From the IMG/VR virus record IMGVR_UViG_3300008114_000275, positions 1 to 32,331 of that record: a DNA stretch of 32,331 nucleotides, one strand, 5' to 3'. The stretch comes from a virus. Shown here piece by piece: positions 10,788-28,179 of the stretch (its first letter is position 1; each line of letters starts with the position of its first letter). The notes beneath the pieces are model-generated. The model had not been told where the DNA came from and did no database searches. It saw only the letters and a list, made by a program, of their open reading frames with translations. The translations under genes were made by a program, and so were the position numbers.

Positions 10788-12134
10788 ATGTATTTAACCG
10801 AAGAACTACAAAAGAAATGGGAAGCAGTGCTAGAGCACCCAGCGCTACCTGCTATTAAAGACCCATATCGTAAGGCAGTTACCGCTCTTGTTCTTGAAAA
10901 CCAAGCACAAGAAATGGTAAAAGCTGGCGGCAACGTACAGCAACTTACAGAAGCAACACCAACTAACGCTGCTGGTACAGGTGGTTTTAGTGGCGGCTCA
11001 ACTGCAACAGGTCCTGTTGCTGGTTTCGATCCAATCCTTATCAGTTTGGTTCGTCGTTCATTACCTAACCTTATTGCATATGATATCTGCGGCGTTCAGC
11101 CAATGACTGGTCCTACAGGACTTATCTTCGCAATGAGAACCATGTATGGTACTGACCGTGTTCCATCAACTGGTGCAGAAGCATTCTACAATGAAGCTAA
11201 TACAGTTCATGCCGGTGATAGAACTGGTTCACACACCTCTCTATCGCTTGCTGCTAATACAGCACTTGGTAACGGTAACGTATTTGCTTCATCTGTTGCA
11301 ACTGGTACTGCTATGAACACAGCAACTGCTGAAGATTTAACTTTTGCAGAAATGGGTTTCTCAATTGAGAAAGTATCTGTAACTGCTAAGACCCGTGCTC
11401 TAAAAGCAGAGTACACAATGGAATTAGCACAAGACTTGAAAGCAGTTCATGGTCTTGACGCTGAAACCGAATTAGCAAACATTCTTTCAACAGAAATTCT
11501 TGCTGAAATTAACCGTGAAGTTGTTCGTACTGTTTATTCGTCAGCTAAAGTTGGCGCACAAGTAGGTACAACCACTGCTGGTACTTTTGACCTAGACACC
11601 GATTCAAACGGTCGTTGGATGGTTGAAAAGATCAAAGGTCTTGCTTTCCAAGTTGAACGTGAAGCTAACACCATCGCAAAAACTACCCGTCGTGGTAAAG
11701 GTAACATCATGATCTGCTCGTCAGATGTCGCTTCTGCTCTTGCAATGGCTGGTATTCTTGACTACAACTCAGCACTACAAGGTCAAGTTAACCTAACCGT
11801 TGATGACACTGGTAATACTTTTGCTGGTACAATCTTCGGTCGTATCAAGGTTTACATTGACCCATACTTCCCAGCATCAGCATCTTCAGAGTTTGCTGTA
11901 GTTGGTTATAAGGGTGCAAACGCTTATGACGCAGGCCTATTCTACTGCCCATACGTTCCTTTACAAATGGTTCGTGCAGTTGATACAGGTAACTTCCAGC
12001 CAAAGATTGGCTTCAAGACACGTTATGGTCTAGTTGCTAACCCATTCGCTGAAGGTACAACTCAAGGTTCAGGTGTTATCACTGCTAGAACTAACTTGTA
12101 CTACCGTGCGTTCAAGATTGCAAACTTAATGTAA
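10788..12134 (+). CDS. 23: Major capsid protein (gp23)
   Basis: The 448-residue HK97-fold capsid protein of T4 type is recognisable by LISLVRRSLPNLIAYDICGVQPMTGPTGLIFAMR (about 85-118, given here only as identification) and the C-terminal RYGLVANPFAEG. An N-terminal region of 55 residues ends in QQLTE followed by A, matching the Leu-x-Glu cleavage rule of gp21, so the mature protein probably begins at Ala56. AAGGAG precedes the ATG. A strong terminator follows. Length is near that of other aquatic T4-like capsids and below T4 gp23 (521). Codons look more GC-rich than in the surroundings, as expected of a highly expressed gene. Confidence 0.97.
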   Translation: MYLTEELQKKWEAVLEHPALPAIKDPYRKAVTALVLENQAQEMVKAGGNVQQLTEATPTNAAGTGGFSGGSTATGPVAGFDPILISLVRRSLPNLIAYDICGVQPMTGPTGLIFAMRTMYGTDRVPSTGAEAFYNEANTVHAGDRTGSHTSLSLAANTALGNGNVFASSVATGTAMNTATAEDLTFAEMGFSIEKVSVTAKTRALKAEYTMELAQDLKAVHGLDAETELANILSTEILAEINREVVRTVYSSAKVGAQVGTTTAGTFDLDTDSNGRWMVEKIKGLAFQVEREANTIAKTTRRGKGNIMICSSDVASALAMAGILDYNSALQGQVNLTVDDTGNTFAGTIFGRIKVYIDPYFPASASSEFAVVGYKGANAYDAGLFYCPYVPLQMVRAVDTGNFQPKIGFKTRYGLVANPFAEGTTQGSGVITARTNLYYRAFKIANLM

Positions 12135-12174
12135 TCTTTAAAACACAAAAGATAATAATTATAATAATGTGTTT

Positions 12175-12206
12175 AAGAGGGACTGTAAAAAGTCCCTCTT
12201 TTTTTT
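12175..12206 (+). terminator. Rho-independent terminator after gp23
   Basis: A perfect 10-bp stem (AAGAGGGACT / AGTCCCTCTT) with the 6-base loop GTAAAA runs directly into eight T residues (12199-12206). It lies 40 bases after the capsid stop and closes the head block. Confidence 0.93.
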
Positions 12207-12210
12207 CGAC

Positions 12211-12217
12211 CTAAATA
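12211..12217 (+). promoter_or_regulatory. Late promoter motif CTAAATA
   Basis: CTAAATA sits four bases beyond the gp23 terminator and 23 bases before the next start, with ACGGAG as ribosome-binding site. A promoter is needed here because of the terminator just upstream, which strengthens the call. Confidence 0.65.
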
Positions 12218-12240
12218 GTACATAACGGAGAAATGATTTT

Positions 12241-12771
12241 ATGACCGCGATTACTAGAAACCCTTCAAACCCAAATTTTTTACAACCTAACAAGTTTATA
12301 TTAACTTTTAGTAGGTTGCCAAATATACAATATTTTTGCCAAACGGTTACTGTGCCTGGTATTTCAATGGCAGAAATACCACAATTTACGCCGTTCGTTG
12401 ATGCTTATTTACCTGGCGAAAAAGCTATATACGATTTATTAAATGTAACATTTATGGTAGATGAAAATTTAACTTCTTGGAAAGAAGTACATGATTGGAT
12501 TCGTGCAATGACTTTCCCAGAAAACTTCGATGAGTATAAAAATTTGGCAAATTTAAATCCAAATAGAGCTCAAAGATTAAAACCACAATACTCTGATGCT
12601 AAAATAGTTTTATTATCTTCTTCTAATAACCCCGTAGTTGAGTTTGTTTTTTATGATGTTTTTCCTACATCAGTGAGTACCATCATACTCTCATCACAAG
12701 AAACTCCAGATAGTCCAGTCACTTCAGACGCAACATTTAGGTACACTTATTATGATATAAAATATGTTTGA
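12241..12771 (+). CDS. Tail-tube-fold protein, probable tail completion or baseplate component
   Basis: The 176-residue protein shows a gp19-like layout: NKFILTFSRLPNIQYFCQTVTVPGIS (about 17-42) corresponds to the tube protein's strand plus CxT-x-x-x-PG motif, and a central helical FMVDENLTSWKEVHDWI follows. It is thus probably a paralogue of the tube protein that caps or initiates the tube. In related aquatic phages the gene between 23 and uvsY is often named gp3 (tail terminator). T4 gp3 has a similar length, but I cannot distinguish gp3 from a gp54-like initiator by eye. Its stop overlaps the -35 box of the uvsY promoter. Confidence 0.7.
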   Translation: MTAITRNPSNPNFLQPNKFILTFSRLPNIQYFCQTVTVPGISMAEIPQFTPFVDAYLPGEKAIYDLLNVTFMVDENLTSWKEVHDWIRAMTFPENFDEYKNLANLNPNRAQRLKPQYSDAKIVLLSSSNNPVVEFVFYDVFPTSVSTIILSSQETPDSPVTSDATFRYTYYDIKYV

Positions 12772-12796
12772 CATTTACTAATACCTATAGTATAAT
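12768..12796 (+). promoter_or_regulatory. Consensus host-type promoter for uvsY
   Basis: TTGACA (12768-12773), a 17-base spacer and TATAAT (12791-12796) match the bacterial sigma-70 consensus at all twelve positions. Transcription should start near 12803, right at the AGGAGG ribosome-binding site, giving a leader of only about 11 bases. TTGACAT is repeated inverted as ATGTCAA at 12795-12801, which could be an operator. Confidence 0.88.
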
Positions 12797-12813
12797 GTCA
12801 ATAGGAGGATATT

Positions 12814-13248
12814 ATGAAACAATTGGAAGAACTACTAGAGATGTGGCGGCAAGATTCTGATATTGATCGTACCGAGCCAGACAAAGAACTTTTAAATATA
12901 CCTAAACTTCACAGCAAGTATTTGAATATACTTTCTAGGCACCGTTTACTTTCTAAAGAATCTGAGTTTAAGTATAATAAAATGAAAAAAATAAAGTGGG
13001 AATATTATACAGGTAAATTAGATGATGATGAATTGAAAGAAAGAGGATGGGAGCCTTTTCCTTACGTACTCAAATCCGAGATTAATACATACTTAGAGAG
13101 TGATGAAGATTTAAACAAATACTTAGCAAACAAACTAATGCATGATGAGATTGTTGATCTGTGTACATCAATAATGAAAGAGTTGAATAGTAGAACCTTT
13201 CAACTTAGAGATTACATAGGTTGGCAAAAATTTATACAAGGTATATAA
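12814..13248 (+). CDS. uvsY: Recombination mediator UvsY
   Basis: The 144-residue protein matches T4 UvsY (137) in length and layout, with the recognisable segment IKWEYYTGKLDDDE and a charged helical N-terminus. UvsY loads the UvsX recombinase on ssDNA covered by gp32. It lies directly before uvsW, as in T4 and its aquatic relatives, and has its own perfect sigma-70 promoter and AGGAGG site, so it is probably expressed early. UvsX itself is not in the window. Confidence 0.88.
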   Translation: MKQLEELLEMWRQDSDIDRTEPDKELLNIPKLHSKYLNILSRHRLLSKESEFKYNKMKKIKWEYYTGKLDDDELKERGWEPFPYVLKSEINTYLESDEDLNKYLANKLMHDEIVDLCTSIMKELNSRTFQLRDYIGWQKFIQGI

Positions 13249-14712
13249 TTGACTGATACTATTATTCTTCGTAAGAAAAACGAATCGTTTATACATTTTG
13301 AATGTGAAAAAAGTGTAGCACAGGAACTATCAGAGTATTTTACTTTTTATGTTCCTGGTTATCAATTTACTCCCGCTTATAAAAACAAAATTTGGGATGG
13401 TAAAATTCGATTGGCTGATCTTCGAACTTTTACTATGTATCATGGACTTGTTCCTTACATTGATAAGTTTTGTAAAGAACGTGAGTATAATCTAGAAATA
13501 GATTCAGATGTGGTAAATACGGAGAATTTTTCTCTTGTTGAAGCAGTAGACTTTGTAAAGACTTTAAATCTTCCTTTTGAAATACGTGACTATCAATTAC
13601 AGGCATTTGTACATGCTATAAGAAATAAAAGAATATTATTATTATCACCAACAGCATCAGGTAAGTCTTTAATTTTATATTGTATAGTAAGTTACTTACA
13701 AGCGTCAGATTTTAAAAAAGGTTTGTTAATTGTTCCAACAACATCCCTTGTTGAACAAATGTATAAGGACTTTCAAGATTATGGGTACGATTCTGATTCT
13801 TTTTGCCATCGTCAGTATTCTGGTAAGGAAAAGACAACTGAAAAATTCTTAACAATCACAACATGGCAATCTATCTATAAAAATGACCTGGAGTATTTTG
13901 AACAGTTTGATTTTGTACTAGGTGATGAAGCTCATCAATTCAAAGCTAAATCTTTAACGACTATTTTATCTGGCTGTGTAAATGCCAAATATAGAATAGG
14001 TACTACAGGTACATTAGATGGTACACAAACTCATAGATTAGTTTTAGAAGGTTTGTTTGGTCCAGTTTACAAGGCTACATCTACATCAGAATTGATTGCC
14101 TCTAAACAACTCGCTGACTTTAAAATTAAATGTCTCATACTAAAACATCCAGAAAATGTATGTCAAGCCGCAAGAAAATGGGATTATAATTCCGAGATAG
14201 AATACATAGTATTAAATGAAGCCAGAAATAAATTTATAAAAAATCTAGTGTTATCGTTAGAAGGTAACACTCTAATACTTTTTCAGTTTGTAGAAAAACA
14301 TGGTAAAGAACTTTACAAAATTATTAAAGAATCTACTAAAAATAGACATGTATTTTTTGTTTTCGGTGGAACAGATGTTGAAGTACGGGAGTCAGTTCGT
14401 GAGATTACTGAAAAACAAAGAGATGCAATCATTGTTGCTAGTTACGGGACTTTCTCTACTGGGGTTAATATCCGCAATCTTCATAATATTGTTTTCGCCT
14501 CACCTTCTAAATCAAGGGTTCGAAATTTACAGTCAATAGGAAGAGGACTAAGAAAGGGAGATAATAAGGAACAAGCCGTGTTGTTTGATATTGTCGATGA
14601 TATGAGAATAGGCAAATTTACTAATTTTACCTTGAATCATTTCATAGAACGTGTTAAAATATACGATGATGAAAAATTCAATTACAAGTTTTACAACATA
14701 GAGCTCAAATGA
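13249..14712 (+). CDS. uvsW: ATP-dependent helicase UvsW
   Basis: The 487-residue superfamily 2 helicase aligns along its length with T4 UvsW (503). The N-terminal domain (about 1-105) includes YQFTPAYKNKIWDGKIRL. The helicase core has Walker A SPTASGKS (133-140), DEAH (226-229), GTTGTL (251-256) and motif VI QSIGRGLRKG (428-437). UvsW unwinds branched DNA and R-loops and helps switch from origin- to recombination-driven replication. The start TTG follows the uvsY stop without a gap. It overlaps the next gene by four bases (ATGA). Confidence 0.95.
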   Translation: MTDTIILRKKNESFIHFECEKSVAQELSEYFTFYVPGYQFTPAYKNKIWDGKIRLADLRTFTMYHGLVPYIDKFCKEREYNLEIDSDVVNTENFSLVEAVDFVKTLNLPFEIRDYQLQAFVHAIRNKRILLLSPTASGKSLILYCIVSYLQASDFKKGLLIVPTTSLVEQMYKDFQDYGYDSDSFCHRQYSGKEKTTEKFLTITTWQSIYKNDLEYFEQFDFVLGDEAHQFKAKSLTTILSGCVNAKYRIGTTGTLDGTQTHRLVLEGLFGPVYKATSTSELIASKQLADFKIKCLILKHPENVCQAARKWDYNSEIEYIVLNEARNKFIKNLVLSLEGNTLILFQFVEKHGKELYKIIKESTKNRHVFFVFGGTDVEVRESVREITEKQRDAIIVASYGTFSTGVNIRNLHNIVFASPSKSRVRNLQSIGRGLRKGDNKEQAVLFDIVDDMRIGKFTNFTLNHFIERVKIYDDEKFNYKFYNIELK

Positions 14713-15131
14713 ATAATCAACCAACAATAAAAATAGTTCGACTTCAAACTGGTGAAGATATTATTTCTAAGATAATCGAAGATGATGAAAGTGATATGGT
14801 ATTATTAAGTAATCCAATGAGAATGATTGTAAAAAGAGTTGAAACAGGACAATCTATTTTTATGATGATGCCTTGGTTACCAATAGAGGTAATCAAAGAA
14901 GATTCTGCTATCATCTATAATTCAGATATCATTACCATGTTTGAACCAAAAGATTCTCTTGTTGAGTATTATCAAAGTATGGTAAATGAATCTATTCTAT
15001 CCATCTTGAAAAATGAAGAACTTTCTTTTGATGATGAAACAGAAGAAGATGAATACAATGAGGAATATGAACTAACTGAGGAAGAACTTAAGGAAATAGA
15101 AGAATACAGGAAGAACAAGAAACTTCATTAA
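14709..15131 (+). CDS. Conserved small phage protein, possibly Sm-like
   Basis: The 140-residue protein has a beta-rich N-terminal half (IKIVRLQTGEDIISKIIEDD, then MVLLSNPMRMIV, then an MMPWLP turn) that resembles the strand pattern of Sm-like small barrels. The very acidic C-terminal tail (about 105-140) is probably helical. It lies between uvsW and the late sigma factor, where T4-like aquatic phages often have such a protein. A role in RNA or DNA metabolism is only an inference from the possible fold and the neighbours. The start overlaps the uvsW stop. Confidence 0.65.
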   Translation: MNNQPTIKIVRLQTGEDIISKIIEDDESDMVLLSNPMRMIVKRVETGQSIFMMMPWLPIEVIKEDSAIIYNSDIITMFEPKDSLVEYYQSMVNESILSILKNEELSFDDETEEDEYNEEYELTEEELKEIEEYRKNKKLH

Positions 15132-15161
15132 TCTTCATACGGAACACCGCTAGTTTAACAC

Positions 15162-15190
15162 TTGTCAAGCACTATGTCAACACTTTTATA
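15162..15190 (+). promoter_or_regulatory. Weak candidate promoter before gp55
   Basis: In the 68-base gap before gp55, TTGTCA (15162-15167) and TTTATA (15185-15190) are 17 bases apart. The hexamer TGTCAA occurs twice here as a direct repeat (15163 and 15175). The -10 match is poor, so this is tentative. Confidence 0.3.
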
Positions 15191-15199
15191 GGTAATAAT

Positions 15200-15730
15200 A
15201 TGGCTAAATCGAATCACTATATCAATAACGCAGATTTTCTTGCAGCACTAGTACAATATCACAAAGATTGTAAAGATGCCAAAAAGAATAAAACGGAAGA
15301 ACCTCCGGTACCAAATTATATTGGAGAATGTTTCCTTAAAATTGCAGAACACCTCTCAAGGAAGCCTAACTTTATTTCTTATACTTTCCGTGATGAGATG
15401 ATTGCTGACGGTATTGAAAACTGCCTAATGTATTTCCGTAACTTTGATCCGGCAAAGAGTAATAATCCATTTGCTTATTTTACTCAAATCATATATTATG
15501 CTTTCTTACGCCGAATCATGAAAGAGAAAAAACAACTCTATGTGAAGTATAAGGCAACTCAACAGTTTGGTTTACTTGATGAGGGTGAAATGTATGAGGA
15601 TGAAAACGGCAACATGAAGCAGTTTGAACTATATGATAATATTTCGGAATTCATACACAACTTTGAAGAAAATAAAAGAAAGAAAAAAGAAAGTAAGACT
15701 AAAGGTATAGACAACTTTGTAGAAGAATAA
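15200..15730 (+). CDS. 55: Late-transcription sigma factor gp55
   Basis: The 176-residue protein matches T4 gp55 (185) in length and in the sigma region 2-like helix ADGIENCLMYFRNFDPAKSNNPFAYFTQIIYYAFLRRI (about 74-111, identification only). This minimal sigma factor binds host RNA polymerase core and recognises the TATAAATA -10 element, consistent with such elements before genes 18, 19, 22 and the 12241 gene in this window. The C-terminus is basic and Lys-rich. It is followed three bases later by gene 47. Confidence 0.93.
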   Translation: MAKSNHYINNADFLAALVQYHKDCKDAKKNKTEEPPVPNYIGECFLKIAEHLSRKPNFISYTFRDEMIADGIENCLMYFRNFDPAKSNNPFAYFTQIIYYAFLRRIMKEKKQLYVKYKATQQFGLLDEGEMYEDENGNMKQFELYDNISEFIHNFEENKRKKKESKTKGIDNFVEE

Positions 15731-15733
15731 CTT

Positions 15734-16745
15734 ATGAAATTATGTATATTGGGTGATACACATTTTGGTGCTCGAGGTGATTCTTTAGATTTTCACACGT
15801 ACTTCAAAAAATTTTATGATGATGTATTTTTTCCTTATTTGGTAGAAAATAAAATCAACGTAGTCGTTCAGATGGGCGATCTATTCGATAGGAGAAAATT
15901 TATCAATTTCAATTCACTCTACCTATCTCGAAAATATTTTTTCAATAAACTTAAAGAACATGAAATCAACTTATATACATTAGTTGGTAATCATGATGTT
16001 GCATTTAAAAATACACTTGAAGTAAACTCACCATCATTGTTATTAAACGAATATGATAATGTATTTTTAGTAGAAAATTTTTCTACAGAAAATTTTGACG
16101 GTGTAGATATTGATATAGTGCCTTGGATTTGTTCTGATAATGAAGAAGAAATATTTGAAAAAATAAAAAATAGTAAATCACAAATTTGTTTTGGGCATTT
16201 TGAAATAGATGGATTCGAAATGGATCGTGGCAATGTTCATCAAGGTGGGCTTGACAGAAAGACATTATCAAAGTATGATATAGTGTTGAGTGGACACTTT
16301 CACCATAAATCTTCTTCGGATAATATTTCATATCTTTGATACTGAAAAAAGAGAACTGGAATTTGTAAAAAATCCATATTCGATATTTCATAAAATAATG
16401 TATGATGATACGAATCATGATTTTGAATATTGGAAATCTTATGATTTTTCTAAGTACAAAGAAACTTATATAAAATTGGTTGTCTTAAACAAACAAAATC
16501 CTTTTCTATTTGAACATGTATTAGACAACTTGTATAAAATTGGTGTAAGTGATTTATCAATAGTCGAAGATTTTACCGACAACTTAATTGGTGATGATCA
16601 AGATATTATCGATCAGGCTGAAGATACGATGACAATCTTATCTAAGTATATTGATAATCTAGAATTAGATGTTGAGAGTGACAAACTAAAAACCGTTATG
16701 CGTGAACTTTATGTTGAAGCATTGAATACTGAGGTATCTGATTAG
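15734..16745 (+). pseudogene. 47: Recombination nuclease subunit gp47, frame-disrupted
   Basis: The first 201 codons (15734-16339) carry all Mre11-type phosphoesterase motifs: GDTH (7-10), GDLFDRR (48-54), GNHD (85-88), GHFE (154-157) and SGHFHH (186-191). They end at TGA right after NISYL. The rest of gp47 continues in the +1 frame from about 16326 (FHIFDTEKRELEF onward) to the TAG at 16743-16745. Compared with T4 gp47, about 16 residues normally found between these segments (the GTPW...RGF region) are absent. An 11-base string, TTTCATATCTT (16326-16336), encodes both flanks in the two frames, suggesting loss between short direct repeats. The ATG at 16290 is not the true start of the second half. 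Gp47 normally works with gp46, which is intact next door. Cause may be mutation, assembly error or, less likely, frameshifting at CTT TGA. Confidence 0.85.
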
Positions 16746-18457
16746 TGATAATTTTTCGTAATATTAAATGGAAAAATTTATTAAGTACTGGTAATAGTTT
16801 TACAGAAATTAAGTTAGACAATACCAGTAATACTTTAATCGTAGGAGAAAATGGCTCAGGTAAGTCAACCTTACTTGATGCTCTTTGTTTTGCTCTTTTT
16901 GGTAAAGCATTTAGAAATATTAATAAACCTAATCTTGTAAATTCAATCAATGGTAAAGAAACTGTGGTTGAGGTTGAGTTTAGTACAAACAATAAAACGT
17001 ATAAAATTGTACGGGGTATCAAACCAAACATCTTTGAAATCTATTGTAATAATGAACTTATAAACCAAGAAGCTGCATCAAGAGATTATCAGGATTACTT
17101 AGAAAGATTTGTTTTGAAAATGAACTATAAATCTTTCACACAGATTGTTATTCTAGGTTCAGCATCTTTTACACCGTTCATGCAACTGTCGGCTTCCGAT
17201 AGAAGAACTATTATTGAAGATTTATTGGATATACAAATCTTCAGTACAATGAATGGTATTGTTAAACAAAGAATTTCAACGAATAAAGAAAATGTTTCTG
17301 TAAAGAAAAATGAAATTGAATTGCAGACACAAGAATATAAATTGAAGAAAGAACATCTTGATAAATTAAATCAAGATGTTGAATCTAAGGTGAAAGAATA
17401 TGAAACCGAAATACAAATCAATAATGATGCCCTTGAATCACTACACACAGAAATTCAAGGATATGCAAATACAATTTCAGAATTACAAGTCACCGTGGAA
17501 CAAAAGATCGAACTCGAAAACAAAGTTAAGAAAATCACTAAACTTGAGTCGCAGATTGAAAACAATATATCCAAATTCAACAAAGATATTGATTTTTTCC
17601 GAGTTCATGATGATTGTCCAACGTGTAGACAAGCCATTGCCATGGAGATTAAAGAAAGAGAAATCGAAGCACTTACTGGAAAAGTCGAACAATCTCAGCA
17701 AGGTCTTAATGATCTCGAATCTAAACTCAATGAAGAACAAACAAAGTTAAATGATATTTTAGAAAAACAAAAAGAAATACAAAAACTTCAAGTTGAACTC
17801 GCAACAAAAACAGCATCAATTACTGGTATAAACAAATATTTACAGAAGTTAAACACACTTATCAACGATCTAAAAACATCGAAGGTAAATACACACAAAG
17901 ATGAACTGTCACTTAAAACATTAAAAGAATCTTTAAGTAATTTAGAAAATGAACTGAAGGAACTCATCAATGAAAAAACTTATTATGAAGCTGCTTCTAA
18001 TTTGTTGAAAGATACTGGCATCAAAACAAAGATTATAAAACAATATCTACCAATTATCAATAAATTAGTTAATAAGTATTTGTCATCATTAGATTTCTTT
18101 GTCAATTTCAATCTTGACGAATCCTTTAAAGAAACAATTAAGTCTAGACATCGTGATGATTTTAGTTATCATAATTTTTCTGAAGGTGAGAAACAACGTA
18201 TTGACATGGCACTCATGTTGACTTGGCGTGCTGTAGCTAAACTAAAAAATTCTTCTAATACAAATTTATTAATACTAGATGAAACTTTTGATTCTAGTCT
18301 TGATTCAAATGGTACTGAAGAACTTATGAAACTGTTGCAGATGTTAGAAGATGTAAACCTGTTTGTTATCTCGCATAAAGGAGATATACTACAGGATAAA
18401 TTTATGAACGTAATTAAATTTACAAAAGAAAAGAATTTTTCGAGGATAGTCAAATGA
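16745..18457 (+). CDS. 46: Recombination nuclease subunit gp46 (SMC/Rad50-like ATPase)
   Basis: The 570-residue protein has Walker A GENGSGKST (34-42), a long coiled coil broken by the zinc-hook CPTC (291-294), the ABC signature FSEGEKQR (478-485) and Walker B LLILDETFD (508-516). It equals T4 gp46 (560) in length. With gp47 it forms the complex that resects DNA ends for recombination-dependent replication. The start GTG overlaps the last base of gene 47 (TAGTG). Its intactness suggests that selection still acts on the pair or that the gp47 lesion is recent. Its stop overlaps the next start (ATGA). Confidence 0.96.
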   Translation: MIIFRNIKWKNLLSTGNSFTEIKLDNTSNTLIVGENGSGKSTLLDALCFALFGKAFRNINKPNLVNSINGKETVVEVEFSTNNKTYKIVRGIKPNIFEIYCNNELINQEAASRDYQDYLERFVLKMNYKSFTQIVILGSASFTPFMQLSASDRRTIIEDLLDIQIFSTMNGIVKQRISTNKENVSVKKNEIELQTQEYKLKKEHLDKLNQDVESKVKEYETEIQINNDALESLHTEIQGYANTISELQVTVEQKIELENKVKKITKLESQIENNISKFNKDIDFFRVHDDCPTCRQAIAMEIKEREIEALTGKVEQSQQGLNDLESKLNEEQTKLNDILEKQKEIQKLQVELATKTASITGINKYLQKLNTLINDLKTSKVNTHKDELSLKTLKESLSNLENELKELINEKTYYEAASNLLKDTGIKTKIIKQYLPIINKLVNKYLSSLDFFVNFNLDESFKETIKSRHRDDFSYHNFSEGEKQRIDMALMLTWRAVAKLKNSSNTNLLILDETFDSSLDSNGTEELMKLLQMLEDVNLFVISHKGDILQDKFMNVIKFTKEKNFSRIVK

Positions 18458-19227
18458 ATTTTAAAGAATATTTGACCTGGTACAGGGATGTTGTTGACAA
18501 AGAAGTTGAGGGATGGTTTTATCCAATTGATGTTGTTGTTATGTATGGTATACTAAAAGAATTACAGAAAGATATACCTGGAGATATTTGTGAAATAGGT
18601 GTAGCTTATGGTAAAAGTGCTATCGCAATTTCTAATTTTAAAGAGCGAAATGATAAACTTTACTTATATGATATTTTTCCAGATGAAGTATATAAAAAAT
18701 CTTTGGAAAATATAAAAAAGTTTGGCACACCAGAAAATCTTATTTGGAGAATACAAGATACTACCGAATTGAAACACGGTATAAAATTCTTTGATAGGCC
18801 TTTAAGATTTTTACACATAGATGGTTGTCATGAACACTCCGCTGTTTTAGGCGATCTTCAATTTTTTAGTCAATATATGGTAGACCGAGGCATAATAGTG
18901 CTTGACGATTTTAATGATTACGAGTATCCTGGTGTCAACAGTGCTGCCATAGAATTTAGTTTGGCAAAATATAATGAAAAAAATTGGAGAGTTTTTGCAA
19001 TAGGTGATAATAAAGCTTACATGTGTCAGAAAAAATATGTATTTACTTACCAGAGTTTACTGGCCATGTTCATGAAAGAAGCGCAGAAAAAACTTGAAGT
19101 TCCTTTTCCTTTACCACTAGGATTAAGAGAAATGATGGACATAAATGTTTTGATGTGTGATTCGAGGGAAGATTGGGATTTGAATAAACTTATTGAAAAA
19201 ATTTATGATAAACCAAGAATAGGATAA
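18454..19227 (+). CDS. Class I SAM-dependent methyltransferase (Methyltransf_24 / TylF-like)
   Basis: The 257-residue protein has the SAM-binding motif DICEIGVAYGKSA (44-56), an acidic residue after strand 2 (LYLYDIF), and the family's HIDGCHEH (121-128) and VLDDFND (149-155) motifs, which may bind a metal. Enzymes of this family methylate hydroxyls of sugars and small molecules. The substrate is unknown here. The phage also encodes a glycosyltransferase at 25300, so glycan modification is a possible link but unproven. It overlaps gene 46 by four bases and precedes the deformylase by three, so it is co-transcribed. Confidence 0.8.
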   Translation: MNFKEYLTWYRDVVDKEVEGWFYPIDVVVMYGILKELQKDIPGDICEIGVAYGKSAIAISNFKERNDKLYLYDIFPDEVYKKSLENIKKFGTPENLIWRIQDTTELKHGIKFFDRPLRFLHIDGCHEHSAVLGDLQFFSQYMVDRGIIVLDDFNDYEYPGVNSAAIEFSLAKYNEKNWRVFAIGDNKAYMCQKKYVFTYQSLLAMFMKEAQKKLEVPFPLPLGLREMMDINVLMCDSREDWDLNKLIEKIYDKPRIG

Positions 19228-19230
19228 ACT

Positions 19231-19809
19231 ATGAGTGAAGTATTAACGATCAATACTGAAAGTGGTATTGTACAAGATGAAAAGGTTGAACCATTAACTG
19301 TATTTGATGATAAGCACCCATTTTTAAATATTGAACTACCAGAATATACAGAACAATTGCCAAATAAACGTATGTCACATTTAATTAAAAGATTGAAGAT
19401 GACAATGAAACTTTATGGTGGTATAGGTCTTTCTGCTAATCAGTGTGGATTAAAAGATCGGGTGTTTGTTATGGGTACAGATCAATTTCAAATTGCATGT
19501 ATTAATCCTAAAGTGTTAGAAGTTTCTGAAGAAATAATTAAAGATATGGAAGGGTGTCTTTCTTTTCCAGCAATGTTTATGAAAGTTGAAAGACCGAAAT
19601 CTGTTCTTGCTGAGTTTACGGATGAAAATGGCCAAAGGCATCAAGAAACATTTTATGGATTAACAGCAAGATGCTTTCTACACGAAACAGATCATATGAA
19701 TGGTGTTAAGTACACCAAATATGTTGGACCTGTTACAATAAAAATGGCGAAACAAAAACAACTAAAAAAAATTAAAAACGTGAAAAGAAGATTAAAAAAT
19801 GCCGTATAG
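19231..19809 (+). CDS. Peptide deformylase
   Basis: All three deformylase motifs are present: GIGLSANQCG (64-73), EGCLSFP (107-113) with the metal-binding Cys109, and HETDH (151-155) with the two metal His and catalytic Glu152. The enzyme removes the formyl group from new proteins. Phage versions are common in T4-like cyanophages and are thought to support synthesis of host or phage membrane proteins. Length 192 is complete; the N-terminus carries about 25 extra residues and the C-terminus is a short Lys-rich tail. It overlaps the next gene by 11 bases. Confidence 0.96.
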   Translation: MSEVLTINTESGIVQDEKVEPLTVFDDKHPFLNIELPEYTEQLPNKRMSHLIKRLKMTMKLYGGIGLSANQCGLKDRVFVMGTDQFQIACINPKVLEVSEEIIKDMEGCLSFPAMFMKVERPKSVLAEFTDENGQRHQETFYGLTARCFLHETDHMNGVKYTKYVGPVTIKMAKQKQLKKIKNVKRRLKNAV

Positions 19810-21082
19810 TTTTGATCCAAAAGATGATGTAGAAACTCAGTGGAAAAAATGGCAGGAACATAATCCACCAGAATCTTTTACACACATAGATGAAAAAGAA
19901 TTATGTGAGAAAACGATTGAAGAACTCACATATGTTTCTGCTATGGATGTAAAAGAATATACTTTGTTTCAAAAGTGGTGTGAAGTACAAGAAAAATATC
20001 CAACCGAAATTGTAAATGATTTGTGGGAAGGAGAAAAGAAAGTACTCAAAGATGATAAACAAAGGCGAATGATTGATAATATCAAATCTAACTTCTGGGT
20101 ACCAGAATCGCCAGAAGATTATCTATCATTAGAACCTGAACTTCTTTACACCAATAAAGAAGATGATTTACCTGAATTGTGGAATACAATAAGAACTTTT
20201 TCTTCCACGATGAAAAATAATTCTAATATTGGTCGCAATCTTAATTTTGTTGTTCGAGACAAAGTAACAAAGAAATATTTGGGTGTAATGTGTATTAGTT
20301 CAGACTTTTTAGATTTAACACCTAGAGATAACTTCATTGGTTGGTCAAGAGAATTAAAAACTCAAGGTGGTATGATTAATCATACTGCAATTGGTTCTAC
20401 GATTGTTCCTTTACAACCTTTAGGTTATAACTATGTGGGCGGTAAATTACTTGCCTTACTTTGTTTGTCTGATCCTGTACAAGAATTATGGGAGAAACTG
20501 TACAAAGATAAATTAGTTTCTGTTACTACCACATCTTTATATGGTAAAACAAAAGCAAATGGTCTTTCTCAATATGATAATTTAGATCATTGGCTTCCTA
20601 TGGGTTTTACGGCTGGTTCAGTTTCATTTGAACCTTTATCAAACACACGATATAAAATTCGTGAGTGGTTAAAAGAAAACCATACACGAAAATATTTTGA
20701 ATGGTATGTTGCAAAGAAACCTTCTGGTCAACCACATAAACGTGATCACAAAAATCGTTCACTAACTTTTACTTATAGTCAACTGAATATACCAAAAGAA
20801 TTAATTAAGTCTGAACATGCAAGAGGAATTTATTTTTCACCTCTGTATGATAAGACTTGCGAGTTTCTCCGCGGCGAACATGATGGCAAAGATATGAAAA
20901 AACTCTTTGATACGAGCGTAGAGAGCCTAAGTAATCTATGGAAACAGAAACATGCTAAGCCAAGAATCAAACAATTGGTGAAGAAAGATAAAGTTTCCTA
21001 TGATACCCTATTTTATGACGATCTTATTTACTTAACTTGGCAAGAAACAAAAGATAAATATTTGCCGCAAGTGGGTCGATAA
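19799..21082 (+). CDS. DUF4338-like protein, function unknown
   Basis: The 427-residue protein has a charged helical N-terminal region (1-105) and a core resembling the DUF4338 pattern: VVRDKVTKKYLGVMCISSDF, then RDNFIGW, a STIVPLQPLGYNYVGGKLLALL helix, a W-x-x-LY element, and VTTTSLYGK ahead of W-x-x-x-GFTAGS. DUF4338 includes DruA of the Druantia defence system, but phages also carry stand-alone relatives of unknown role. No nuclease motif is obvious. The C-terminal third (about 290-427) is basic and may be a separate domain. It ends right before the intergenic RNA-like region. The family call is by pattern only. Confidence 0.6.
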   Translation: MPYSFDPKDDVETQWKKWQEHNPPESFTHIDEKELCEKTIEELTYVSAMDVKEYTLFQKWCEVQEKYPTEIVNDLWEGEKKVLKDDKQRRMIDNIKSNFWVPESPEDYLSLEPELLYTNKEDDLPELWNTIRTFSSTMKNNSNIGRNLNFVVRDKVTKKYLGVMCISSDFLDLTPRDNFIGWSRELKTQGGMINHTAIGSTIVPLQPLGYNYVGGKLLALLCLSDPVQELWEKLYKDKLVSVTTTSLYGKTKANGLSQYDNLDHWLPMGFTAGSVSFEPLSNTRYKIREWLKENHTRKYFEWYVAKKPSGQPHKRDHKNRSLTFTYSQLNIPKELIKSEHARGIYFSPLYDKTCEFLRGEHDGKDMKKLFDTSVESLSNLWKQKHAKPRIKQLVKKDKVSYDTLFYDDLIYLTWQETKDKYLPQVGR

Positions 21083-21093
21083 TCTGTTATAAT
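21083..21093 (+). promoter_or_regulatory. Extended -10 promoter for an intergenic transcript
   Basis: TGTTATAAT (21085-21093) is a perfect extended -10 (TG, one base, TATAAT), starting three bases after the DUF4338-like stop codon. A TTGCCG lies upstream at 21062-21067 with an overlong 20-base spacing. Transcription would begin near 21100. Confidence 0.6.
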
Positions 21094-21099
21094 GTCTTT

Positions 21100-21165
21100 A
21101 ATGCGGTGAGTCCGAGACAACCTTCCCCCGAAGGCAGACAGGTTTAACTCCTGTAAACCGCTCCA
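21100..21165 (+). ncRNA. Candidate structured RNA with a tRNA-like 3' half
   Basis: Starting just downstream of an extended -10, the sequence can form a closing stem GCGGT/ACCGC (21103-21107 with 21157-21161), a hairpin CCTTC/GAAGG (21121-21134) with loop CCCC, and a hairpin ACAGG/CCTGT (21138-21154) with a 7-base loop TTTAACT. The last hairpin is followed by AAACCGC, T, CCA: exactly a T arm, 7-base acceptor strand, discriminator and CCA, resembling the end of glycine tRNAs. At 63 bases it is too short for a tRNA, has no acceptable D arm or 7-base anticodon loop, and the last two acceptor pairs fail. An alternative fold, GGTTTA/TAAACC, exposes ACTCCTG, an anti-Shine-Dalgarno-like loop. It may be a decayed tRNA, a small RNA or the 5' leader of the next gene. 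Confidence 0.4.
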
Positions 21166-21181
21166 GTTACTAATTTGACAA

Positions 21182-21202
21182 CAGTTGTTATAATGACAAC
21201 TG
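21182..21202 (+). repeat. Inverted repeat upstream of the CobT-like gene
   Basis: CAGTTGT (21182-21188) and ACAACTG (21196-21202) are perfect inverted repeats around TATAATG, and pairing extends outward by CAA/TTG if one C is bulged. There is no T-run after it, so it is not a classic terminator. It abuts the promoter at 21204 and may be an operator or RNA hairpin. Confidence 0.45.
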
Positions 21203-21203
21203 G

Positions 21204-21232
21204 TTGCCATTTCCTCAAATCTGTGTTACAAT
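21204..21232 (+). promoter_or_regulatory. Promoter for the CobT-like gene
   Basis: TTGCCA (21204-21209), a 17-base spacer and TACAAT (21227-21232), preceded by the extended -10 TG, form a good host-type promoter. The transcript would start near 21239, about 22 bases before the ATG, with CAGGAT as ribosome-binding site. The CobS-like gene has a near-identical promoter. Confidence 0.75.
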
Positions 21233-21260
21233 ATACATATACTGATAACAGGATGTCTAA

Positions 21261-23543
21261 ATGACAACATTTACTGCCGAATCAAAATCTCAGCTGGCGA
21301 AACTCCTAGCTACCGAGAATCTACGTATTGAACACCAAAAGATTAGAACCGCTCGATTCGATCCAAAGAATCGGGTTTTGTATTGCCCTATTTGGAAAAA
21401 TATGAGTGGTGTGCTTTATGATCTTTTGATGGGTCATGAAGTTGGTCACGCTCTGTACACTCCTGCTCAAGGTTGGCATGATGCCGTTTGCGACAAAGGC
21501 CGAAACTATAAAGGCTTTTTGAATGTTGTTGAAGATGCCCGTATTGAGAAAAAAATCAAACGCAAATATCCTGGTATTCGTAAGTCTTTTGTTGAAGCTT
21601 ACAATGACTTGATGCAGCGTGATTTCTTTGAATTGAAAGGTCGTGATATTAATCAAATGTCCTTCATTAATCGTTTGAATCTTTTTACTAAGTCAAGCGG
21701 TACTATGGATATTAAATTCACCGCCTTTGAAGAAAAGTTGGTTGAAGAAGTAATGCGTTGTGAAACTTGGGATGATGTTTTGCGTGTTACTGGACTTGTT
21801 TGGGATTATTCTAAAGATGAACAATTTCAAATGGTTGAAGAAGAATTTACTTTTGAATTAGATTCTTTTGGTGAAGATGGTGATTTTGACGATTCGTCCG
21901 ATTCTGATTTTGATTATGATTTTAGTGATGAGACCACAGAACAGGAGGACAATCAATCTGATTCTGAAGGTTCAGAAGAATCTGATGATTCTAAAAAGAT
22001 GCAGGGTACTCCTAATAATGAAGATGAAACGGAAGATGGTGAAGAAACCTTCACACAGATAAACCGTTTTAAACAATCTACATTATCTAAGGAAGATCAA
22101 TTCATTGTTTTCGAACCTACATGTGAAACTGATAATGCATTTCGTAAAAAAGAAAATGAACTTCTTGATGAAAAATGCAAAGATTATGTTTACATAACAA
22201 CGCCTGAACCTAATTTGAAAAGTATTATTACTCCTGCAAAGCGAGTGAATCAATTATTATCAGAATTCTATACTAATGAGTCTGAGAAAACTACGCTTTA
22301 TAATAGTTTCAAAAGTCGTAATGAAAGATACATTTCTTTACTCGCAAAAGAATTTGAAATGAAAAAAGCTGCATCATGTTATGCTAAAGCTAAAACTTCA
22401 AATACTGGTGATATTGATGTATCAAAATTGTACAAGTATCAAATTGATGATACTATCTTTAAGAAAATGATGCGTATACCAAAAGGTAAATCGCATGGTC
22501 TTATTTTACTTTTGGATAAATCTGGGTCTATGTCAAATAATCTGAAAGGTTCTATTGAACAGATTTTGATACTGACTTCATTTTGCCGTAAAGTGAATAT
22601 TCCTTTTGTCGTTTATGGTTTTGGTAATAACACTACAGCTTTCTTTGAAGATCATGGTGGTTACAATGAAACACTAAATCAAAAACTACGCGAATCTTTT
22701 TCTAAAGAAGAAGGTGAACTTTGTTTAGATGGTGTGTTTTTGCGCGAGTATCTAAACTCAAAAATGTCCAATTCTGAATTTACTAAATCGACTAAAAATT
22801 TGGTTTCATTGATGAATGGTTTTACTGGCGGTCGATATAGTCGGCATTATCCTGTCTCTGAAGGTCTTTCAAACACACCAATGGTTGAAGCTATTGTTGC
22901 TGTTGAAAAGATTACACAAGAATTTAGAAAAGTAAATAATCTAGATATTGTAAATTTGGTTATTGTTCACGATGGTGATGCTGATACGATTAATACTTAT
23001 CACTCATATGCTGGTGATAACTACAAAAATTATAAACACATGAGTTCTACGTACAATAATGTTTATTTACGTGATAAGAAAACCAAATTTGAAACGAAAG
23101 TTGAACATAACGATTTTCTAAGTCAAAATATTTTGAAATGGTATTCATATCGAACTGGTGCTAAAGTTTTTGGTTTCTTTCTGACTGACGGAAGCAATAG
23201 TTCTGCTGAAAGTGCGGCTATGATGCATCATTATGAAAAAACCGATTCTAAAAACATTTATGATAATGAGTCTATTCAGTGGCATGAAAAACGATACAGA
23301 GCAAAAGAGTTGGCAAAAAAACTAAAGAAAGAAAAACTTTTGGTTTCTAAAAAGCCAGGATATGAAAGTTTCTTCATTATTCCTGGTGGCAGTGAACTTC
23401 AAGTAAATGATGGTGAACTAGAAATTGATACCACCAAAAAAGTTACGGCAAGTAAACTTGCCAATGCGTTTATGAAATTTAACAAAAAACGCCAAGTGAA
23501 TCGGGTACTTGTTTCTAAATTTATTGATGGTATTGCAGTTTGA
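21261..23543 (+). CDS. CobT-like protein: metallopeptidase-like N-terminus plus VWA domain
   Basis: The 760-residue protein begins with a zinc-peptidase-like region: HEVGH at 59-63 and a possible third ligand in NVVEDARIEKKI (88-99). A very acidic Asp/Glu/Ser region (about 200-270) follows. The C-terminal von Willebrand A domain carries the MIDAS motif DKSGS (419-423), preceded by GLILLL. This layout matches the CobT-like VWA partners of MoxR/CobS AAA+ ATPases. True CobT belongs to the aerobic cobaltochelatase of B12 synthesis, but no chelatase CobN or other B12 gene is here, so a chaperone or protein-remodelling role with the downstream ATPase is as likely. It has its own promoter. Confidence 0.85.
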   Translation: MTTFTAESKSQLAKLLATENLRIEHQKIRTARFDPKNRVLYCPIWKNMSGVLYDLLMGHEVGHALYTPAQGWHDAVCDKGRNYKGFLNVVEDARIEKKIKRKYPGIRKSFVEAYNDLMQRDFFELKGRDINQMSFINRLNLFTKSSGTMDIKFTAFEEKLVEEVMRCETWDDVLRVTGLVWDYSKDEQFQMVEEEFTFELDSFGEDGDFDDSSDSDFDYDFSDETTEQEDNQSDSEGSEESDDSKKMQGTPNNEDETEDGEETFTQINRFKQSTLSKEDQFIVFEPTCETDNAFRKKENELLDEKCKDYVYITTPEPNLKSIITPAKRVNQLLSEFYTNESEKTTLYNSFKSRNERYISLLAKEFEMKKAASCYAKAKTSNTGDIDVSKLYKYQIDDTIFKKMMRIPKGKSHGLILLLDKSGSMSNNLKGSIEQILILTSFCRKVNIPFVVYGFGNNTTAFFEDHGGYNETLNQKLRESFSKEEGELCLDGVFLREYLNSKMSNSEFTKSTKNLVSLMNGFTGGRYSRHYPVSEGLSNTPMVEAIVAVEKITQEFRKVNNLDIVNLVIVHDGDADTINTYHSYAGDNYKNYKHMSSTYNNVYLRDKKTKFETKVEHNDFLSQNILKWYSYRTGAKVFGFFLTDGSNSSAESAAMMHHYEKTDSKNIYDNESIQWHEKRYRAKELAKKLKKEKLLVSKKPGYESFFIIPGGSELQVNDGELEIDTTKKVTASKLANAFMKFNKKRQVNRVLVSKFIDGIAV

Positions 23544-23560
23544 TATGTTGTTTTTATGCG

Positions 23561-23592
23561 ACAGACCTATTGCCAAGGTATCAATAGTCTGT
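23561..23592 (+). repeat. Imperfect inverted repeat around the CobS-like gene -35 box
   Basis: ACAGACCTATTG (23561-23572) and CAATAGTCTGT (23582-23592) are inverted repeats of 11 pairs with one bulged C and a 9-base loop. The -35 box TTGCCA starts in the left arm and ends in the loop. It could be an operator, or an RNA hairpin ending the upstream transcript, though no T-run follows. Confidence 0.5.
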
Positions 23593-23598
23593 TATAAT
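23570..23598 (+). promoter_or_regulatory. Promoter for the CobS-like gene
   Basis: TTGCCA (23570-23575), 17 bases, then TATAAT (23593-23598) with the extended TG at 23590-23591. Transcription would start near 23605, with CTTGGAGA as ribosome-binding site before the ATG at 23636. Confidence 0.8.
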
Positions 23599-23635
23599 TG
23601 TGGTATAGTGAACAATCCTTCTTGGAGAATATATA

Positions 23636-24823
23636 ATGGCAAGTCGTAATGAAAAGCGTCAAAAGTTTCTGAATGCTCTTATCGCTACTGGTAAGAACAC
23701 TGTAACGCTTGATGAAATTAAAGCTATTGCACAAAAACTTAATATTGGTCAACCTTACTGGTTTACAAATGATGATGTTAATCGTGTAAAGCGCGGCACA
23801 TACAAAGTGCCTGGTGTTACAGAGAAACAAAATGTGCAAACTGTTGATATGCAGGCGCAAGTAATTCCTATGCAAAAAGTTGAAAACAAATCGAGCAATA
23901 GAATTTCTTCAATCGTTACTGATCTGGAAATTGAGAATTTGGTACCAACCAAATACAAAAATTATGTTCCGTTTGGAAACTTTGAAGATATCGTTTCTAT
24001 CATCGAATCAAGAACTTTCTTTCCTATTTTCATCACTGGTCAATCAGGTAATGGTAAAACCATGTCCGTTGAACAAGCTTGCGCTAAACTAAATCGTAAG
24101 TTTGTTTGCGTTTCAATGACACCTGAAACCGATGAAAGTGATTTGTTTGGTAACTTTATTCTGATTAATGGTCAAATGGAATGGCGTGATGGTCCTGTAA
24201 CCGTTGCGGCTCGTCAAGGTGCCGTACTCTGTATCGATGAAGTCGATTATGGCGCACAGAATCTTTCCTCACTTCAGCGTGTGCTTGAAGGTAAACCGTT
24301 TCTTCTGAAAAAGAAAAATGAATTGATTGTACCTGCTGAAGGATTTACCGTTATTGCTACTGCAAATACTAAAGGTAAAGGTTCTGAAGATGGTCGTTAT
24401 ATGTTTACGAATGTATTGAATGAAGCGTTTCTTGAGCGTTTCCCCAATACAATGGAACAAGATTGGCCTCCTGTTAAAGTTGAGCGTAAGATTGTCGAGA
24501 AAGAACTTGCTTCTGCTGGTCGTTCTGATAATGAATTCGCTGAAAAACTTGTTACATGGGCTGATGTTATTCGTAAAACCTTTGATGAAGGCGGATGTGA
24601 TGAAGTGATTTCCACTCGCCGTTTGGTACATATTGCACGTACTTACGGTGTGTTTGGTGATAAGATGAAATCAATCGGTCTTTGCTTGAATCGTTTTGAT
24701 GAAGATACCAAAATTTCTTTTACTGATTTGTATACCAAAGTGGATGCTGGTGCTAATACCGAAACCATTATGGCAAAAACAGTTGAAGAAACAATTTCGG
24801 TAAATGAAGAAGTTCCTTTCTAA
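23636..24823 (+). CDS. cobS: CobS-like AAA+ ATPase (MoxR clade)
   Basis: The 395-residue protein has a small N-terminal domain (about 1-60) containing YWFTNDDVNRVKRGTYKVP, seen in CobS proteins, a linker, and an AAA+ core with Walker A GQSGNGKT (135-142) and Walker B CIDEVD (199-204), then TANTKG at sensor 1. CobS genes are widespread in T4-like cyanophages, usually named for the cobaltochelatase small subunit. Together with the upstream CobT-like VWA protein it forms a MoxR/VWA pair; both have separate but matching promoters. Whether it acts on cobalamin or on protein complexes cannot be told from sequence. Confidence 0.9.
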   Translation: MASRNEKRQKFLNALIATGKNTVTLDEIKAIAQKLNIGQPYWFTNDDVNRVKRGTYKVPGVTEKQNVQTVDMQAQVIPMQKVENKSSNRISSIVTDLEIENLVPTKYKNYVPFGNFEDIVSIIESRTFFPIFITGQSGNGKTMSVEQACAKLNRKFVCVSMTPETDESDLFGNFILINGQMEWRDGPVTVAARQGAVLCIDEVDYGAQNLSSLQRVLEGKPFLLKKKNELIVPAEGFTVIATANTKGKGSEDGRYMFTNVLNEAFLERFPNTMEQDWPPVKVERKIVEKELASAGRSDNEFAEKLVTWADVIRKTFDEGGCDEVISTRRLVHIARTYGVFGDKMKSIGLCLNRFDEDTKISFTDLYTKVDAGANTETIMAKTVEETISVNEEVPF

Positions 24824-27195: not shown

Positions 27196-28179
27196 ATGCA
27201 ATTGCAAGAAGCCGCTAGCATTCTAGCTAGTCTCGACAATAGAGACTATAACTTAAAAGACCTCGTTGATATTGCAAAAAAAGTCACGAATTCGAAAAAG
27301 TATAAAATTCCAAATTCTACACCTTATGATGCGAACAACTTTCTTGTTGATTTGAATAATGCAAAGGTTTGTATCACATATCAAAGAAAGATGAGACTTT
27401 TAAAACTCTTAAAAAAATTAAACTCCACTGGAGGATTTGATAAGAGAGCAGCCGGTCACATCGATGTTGCAGTTAGACCAAATGGAGACATTTTTATTTG
27501 GGATGGATTTAGAAGAGCTTTCATGGCTCTTTTTTGTGGAATTGATCATATGCCCGCTTCATGGTTGAATCACAGTCATGGAATGACTGTAACGGAATGC
27601 GAGAAACAAGAAGCTAGAATGTTCAAGATTCGTAACTCTGATATTGAACAAATGAAACCTGAAGAAATTTTTAGAGCTAAAGTTGTTTATGATGAACCTG
27701 AAGCACTGAAGTTTTTGTCTTTTTTAAAGGACTGTAGATTGGATGTTGAAAACTTGTTACCAGGTTTTGTTTCATTAGGAGGTATAAAACAATTGTTCAA
27801 TACTTGGAAACATGAACATGTTTCGCACGATAATCTAATACTTTCTTCCAACATTATACAAAATGCTTGGGTAAAAGATACAGTAATTTCTTCATATTTA
27901 CTGTGTGGTCTTGGAAAGTTTTTAGATATTAATGAACATATGAATAAGTCTTTTGATGAAGAATATATTTTAAAACATTTTAAAAATTTTATTAATGTTA
28001 GACCTCCAAGAAAACAAGAAGAATTGACTGGTCGTCGATTGAATAAAACACCAAACGATTCTATCGCTTATTGTATTGCTAAACATGTTTTAGGTGAAGA
28101 TGAAAAGTACATGCAAGAATTTCTAAACAATTCTAAATTAAAACATGATGATATTGATGTTTTAGATGACGATGTTTAG
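27196..28179 (+). CDS. ParB/sulfiredoxin-fold-like protein
   Basis: The 327-residue protein has a central segment HIDVAVRPNGDIFIWDGFRRAFMALFCGIDHMPASWL (88-124, identification only). Its G-x-I-x-I-x-DG-x-x-R pattern (IWDGFRR, 101-107) is the signature of ParB/Srx-like domains, known to bind nucleotides and in some members to cut or modify DNA or ADP-ribose. The N-terminal 80 residues are helical and basic. The C-terminal part (about 150-327) is helical and ends in an acidic stretch. It has its own gap and AAAGGAGA site. Function is unknown; the place inside the replication-clamp cluster suggests a link to replication or repair. Confidence 0.65.
   Translation: MQLQEAASILASLDNRDYNLKDLVDIAKKVTNSKKYKIPNSTPYDANNFLVDLNNAKVCITYQRKMRLLKLLKKLNSTGGFDKRAAGHIDVAVRPNGDIFIWDGFRRAFMALFCGIDHMPASWLNHSHGMTVTECEKQEARMFKIRNSDIEQMKPEEIFRAKVVYDEPEALKFLSFLKDCRLDVENLLPGFVSLGGIKQLFNTWKHEHVSHDNLILSSNIIQNAWVKDTVISSYLLCGLGKFLDINEHMNKSFDEEYILKHFKNFINVRPPRKQEELTGRRLNKTPNDSIAYCIAKHVLGEDEKYMQEFLNNSKLKHDDIDVLDDDV

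Follow-up and report, generated by a model that had tools for sequence, protein, structure and literature searches.

The question raised by this locus is whether the break in gene 47 belongs to the phage or to the public record of it. The window (the whole 32,331-base stretch of DNA analysed, an IMG/VR record) comes from a T4-like phage, with genes in the order terminase, sheath, portal, protease, capsid, late sigma factor, gp47, gp46, clamp and clamp-loader. Gene 47 as a whole occupies 15734–16745, and no single uninterrupted reading frame runs through this interval. Its parts are as follows.

15734–16339, plus strand: gene 47 5′ part, Mre11/SbcD-like nuclease subunit, 201 amino acids, ending at a premature TGA (16337–16339)
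16324–16325, no strand: gene 47 junction, at which 59 nt of all close relatives are absent
16343–16745, plus strand: gene 47 3′ part in the +1 frame, inside an open reading frame at 16290–16745, the same as in the A-type contigs described below

The break is genuinely present in the sequence as given, and all coordinates of an earlier note on this DNA were confirmed. Open reading frames and translations agreed with its description of a Mre11-like half that stops at the TGA and a remainder that continues in the +1 frame, and gp46, which adjoins gene 47 at 16745–18457, was found to be intact as that note had said. Both halves of gene 47 matched PHROG 100 (SbcD-like endonuclease subunit), at profile positions 29–229 and then 246–380, with E values of 5.8e-72 for residues 1–201 and 6.8e-20 for the C-terminal part. 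The 16 profile positions left uncovered between them correspond to the 16 residues that had been counted as missing between the flanks. The 5′ part also matched Pfam Metallophos, and by profile both fragments are placed in the Mre11/SbcD (T4 gp47) family.

Relatives of the window were collected by searching IMG/VR with each gene 47 half. Four contigs of the window's own strain, hereafter A-type, were obtained in this way, from four metagenomes.

3300005527_003220: A-type contig L156 (also L002 and L082)
3300008110_002406: A-type contig L003
3300008339_005481: A-type contig L161 (also L083)
3300008450_002007: A-type contig L159 (also L084)

Searches for more A-type contigs, and through them for other chimeric joins, were made with the tail sheath part at the left of the window and the P0005 part at its right, and turned up none. 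The four are 99.8–100% identical to the window, at 6–9 kb each; from 16325 rightward, L156 and L161 are 100% identical to it over 7,632 and 6,984 nt, respectively. All four carry 59 extra bases at the junction and have gene 47 whole, so that the loss of about 59 bases with a change of frame, as postulated in the earlier note, was matched to the base. The gene is also intact in contigs of a second strain, B (L004, L005, L086, L160 and others), which is ~10% diverged from A. In all, gene 47 was unsplit in 76 of 76 distinct DNA versions of this portion, every short open reading frame being one that runs off a contig end. The window junction was absent from every other IMG/VR contig and every GTDB genome contig, and a deletion common to a lineage was rejected on these grounds. 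It had been proposed that close relatives with the same split would speak against a recent deletion; the outcome was the opposite, all close relatives being intact, and the lesion is therefore private to the window contig.

Relative to intact gp47, the sequence absent at the junction comprises residues 198–217 (20 residues), of which nine positions are invariant among 37 homologues. They sit just after the GHxH motif and, in an AlphaFold model, include a strand that follows it; loss of gp47 function is expected from their absence. The model was made for the intact L003 gp47 (356 amino acids, mean pLDDT 77.5), and a fold search with it matched Mre11/Rad50 and SbcCD entries (best E = 2.2e-13); the intact homologue is accordingly predicted to have the Mre11/SbcD fold. 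A PDB sequence search with intact gp47 gave no match, and among annotated phage genomes there was no close relative, the best showing ~45% protein identity and 66–74% DNA identity over short pieces. The locus resembles T4 gene 47, SbcD and Mre11 in that both window fragments match the family, and T4 in that the intact A-type gp47 adjoins gp46 (SbcC/Rad50), but it differs in its broken frame and in the loss of 20 residues after GHxH, in the window contig only.

Two further genes of the window were recorded. A 427-amino acid protein encoded at 19799–21082 matches DruA (Pfam PF14236, E = 1.5e-20; PADLOC DruA, E = 1.2e-17), and its gene sits, in this T4-like phage, between those for peptide deformylase and a PHROG 459 "peptidase"; DruA is normally linked with the Druantia anti-phage system. 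Adjoining the clamp-loader gene, 27196–28179 encodes a 327-amino acid protein for which there was no Pfam match and no relative in an IMG/VR pattern scan.

For the origin of the bases around the junction, the window was compared with the A-type contigs over 12 kb (11902–23956). With one L159-only site set aside, private window differences were found at 15619, 16297, 16318 and 16321. Three of these four (16297, 16318 and 16321) lie within 28 nt to the left of the junction, an arrangement with a chance probability of ~5e-8, and at each of the three the window carries the B allele. The features concerned are as follows.

16217–16296, no strand: 80-nt block common to both strains without a mismatch, containing the switch from A to B
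16297–16327, no strand: B-type patch, in which C at 16297, G at 16318, T at 16321 and ATT at 16325–16327 match B and differ from all four A-type contigs
16326–16336, plus strand: the right-hand (Phe-His-Ile-Phe) sequence TTTCATATCTT, joined here to the B-type flank on its left

At 16325–16327 the window reads ATT as in B, where A has GTG, so that the alleles switch to the second strain at the junction in three single bases and in this triplet, all of them B and not A. From 16343 the window again follows A, and 14 sites within 43 nt distinguish the two strains here. The 80-nt block is among the longest exact A/B matches in the aligned region, and it is inside this block that contig L033 ends and contig L158 begins. 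At the second join, ATTACATATGT in B stands against ATTTCATATCT in A, the two being alike at 9 of 11 positions, and the exact match at the B-to-A join is 3 nt. Read from left to right, the window is A, then B for at least 28 nt, then A again after a loss of 59 nt. As a separate observation, L159 contains, at window-equivalent 11379–11656, a 278-nt stretch identical to B within an otherwise A-type contig, which represents either real A/B recombination or another assembly strain switch.

From these comparisons the gene 47 break is probably a chimeric join, formed in assembly or carried by a library molecule, of two co-occurring T4-like lake phage strains, and we would put the probability of this reading at roughly three in four. 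An artefact is favored because gene 47 is whole in four near-identical contigs and the bases at the junction are those of the other strain, because the lesion is seen in one contig only and in a conserved gene, because A and B contigs co-occur in samples 3300008110 and 3300008339, the setting that yields chimeric contigs, and because the sibling contigs L004 and L158 show the same class of clean private deletions. The assembled path would follow strain A up to the 80-nt block, leave it along strain B for ~30 nt and be joined to A again 59 nt too far downstream, over the short imperfect overlap, dropping 59 nt and shifting the frame. A scaffolding, gap-closing or chimeric-read step would be needed for the B-to-A join, since a pure de Bruijn-graph walk cannot bridge a 3-nt exact or a 9/11 match. 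Short-read assembly and scaffolding have been documented to join related viral strains into chimeric contigs (PMC4247695, PMC7299287). The window is like them in its strain switch inside a long common block, in a lesion private to one contig and in having sibling contigs with similar clean deletions; it is unlike them in its second join, a short imperfect overlap with no common k-mer. We infer an origin of the join in assembly or library preparation, not in a phage genome. The artefact is the most likely verdict on the evidence of alleles and sibling contigs, rather than of read mapping.

An all-against-all comparison of the collected loci was carried out for clean deletions between near-identical contigs. 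Such deletions were few (31 pair events, representing six distinct lesions) and were concentrated in L004 and the window. L004, a B-type contig (IMGVR 3300008110_002223, sample 3300008110), lacks 87 nt of the major capsid gene, 114 nt of a tail tube-like gene and 160 nt of gp46, the last with a broken frame, all relative to ~100% identical siblings without the lesions. Its deletion sites are at 721, 2002/2003 and 7179/7180. A phage bearing all three deletions is implausible, and they are probably misassemblies in the public record; the L004 joins share 0–2 nt of sequence and may reflect another process than the window join. In L158, a contig of a third strain (IMGVR 3300008259_004103), a loss of ~128 nt on the reverse strand at about 463–490 joins the gp47 end to gp46 without a change of frame, producing one open frame of 707 residues. 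This fusion, curious if real, is probably an assembly join as well. Comparison of near-identical contigs from related phages revealed further clean deletions in L107 (~179 nt, at about 2732–2738) and in L143 (~33 nt, at 756/757).

A real and very recent phage deletion, made by inter-strain template switching during co-infection, is the main alternative, though an unlikely one. In such an event a strain A end would pair in the 80-nt block, copy about 30–100 nt of B and then return to A at the 9/11 repeat, having skipped 59 nt; the resulting gp47 would end after its nuclease core, depriving gp46 of its partner. This course of events accords with the A-B-A mosaic, its 59-nt loss and the imperfect junction repeat, and the same 9/11 repeat would also be consistent with slipped synthesis in a genuine genome, but two independent events within ~110 nt would be needed. 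T4 recombination is highly active, and Gp46/Gp47 are regarded as the main enzymes of end resection in it (PMC3016280); for gp47, a protein critical for T4 recombination, the loss of 20 conserved residues, nine of them invariant, speaks against a real lesion of this kind. Exchange between A and B may be real in the population, as the B-identical patch of L159 would allow, yet the lesion itself is confined to a single contig among intact relatives, and the several clean deletions of sibling contigs point to an artefactual origin of lesions of this kind in these data. With the chimeric join as the preferred reading, gene 47 of the real phage would most likely be intact.

In the earlier note the break was attributed to a deletion between 11-base direct repeats, one copy of which was thought to remain as TTTCATATCTT. 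Two elements of this proposal stood, namely the 59-nt size of the loss and the right-hand Phe-His-Ile-Phe sequence as the source of the remaining copy. The exact left copy did not: it was present in 0 of 76 distinct relatives, in which identity to the right copy was 3–9 of 11 and mostly 6–8. The left counterpart is alike at 8 of 11 positions in strain B and, in register, at ~6 of 11 in strain A. Elsewhere in the window there is one copy of TTTCATATCTT only, on the minus strand at 20889–20899, against 0.15 copies expected by chance. The left flank (16297–16327) comes, moreover, from another strain than the rest of the window, contrary to a deletion between exact repeats, which leaves the three B-type bases beside the junction unexplained. 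Slippage or recombination between two exact 11-base direct repeats in a strain A genome, with loss of one copy, is therefore very improbable, and the exact-repeat mechanism is already largely refuted. Assembly collapse of the repeat had been offered as an alternative. An assembly error is indeed live, but repeat collapse was rejected because none of the sequences compared has two exact copies that could collapse, and the term should be replaced by a chimeric join between two co-occurring strains.

The frame change coincides with a sequence reminiscent of the programmed +1 frameshift of prfB (RF2).

16334–16339, plus strand: CTT TGA, an out-of-frame reading of ATC TTT GAT (Ile-Phe-Asp)

In prfB, an SD-like AGGGGG lies three nt upstream of CTTTGA, which is followed by C (PMC12421855). 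The window shares CTT TGA at the point of frame change and differs in the rest: upstream stands CTTCGGATAATATTTCATAT, with no SD-like AGGGGG element, the stop reads TGAT rather than TGAC, with T as the +4 base, and the signal is not conserved. Relatives are in frame here and the hexamer follows their codon choice: 32 of the 76, all intact, have CTT TGA out of frame, and the others carry synonymous or conservative ATT, ATA, GTG or TTC codons in its place. The possibility already voiced that the hexamer is coincidental, with AGGGGG absent, is supported by these ordinary Ile-Phe-Asp codons, and on the comparison with relatives CTT TGA is a coincidence and not a programmed frameshift site. Expression of gene 47 through an RF2-like +1 frameshift at TAT CTT TGA, for which the location of the hexamer at the frame change speaks, has next to no likelihood given the free variation of the hexamer and the missing upstream element, and a product so made would still omit ~20 conserved residues.

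On the preferred reading, a chimeric join, the gene 47 break is not a real feature, and the window illustrates clearly how co-occurring phage strains can make an "essential gene" look falsely broken in a public viral record, and can leave an inviting frameshift motif at the break. Other apparent pseudogenes in metagenomic contigs can be tested simply by the same allele check, which asks whether differences private to a contig cluster at a junction and carry the alleles of a second strain. Were the lesion real, it would represent an inter-strain copying error that disables a recombination gene in nature, a snapshot of a template switch in a natural T4-like population with the Mre11-like subunit knocked out and gp46 intact.
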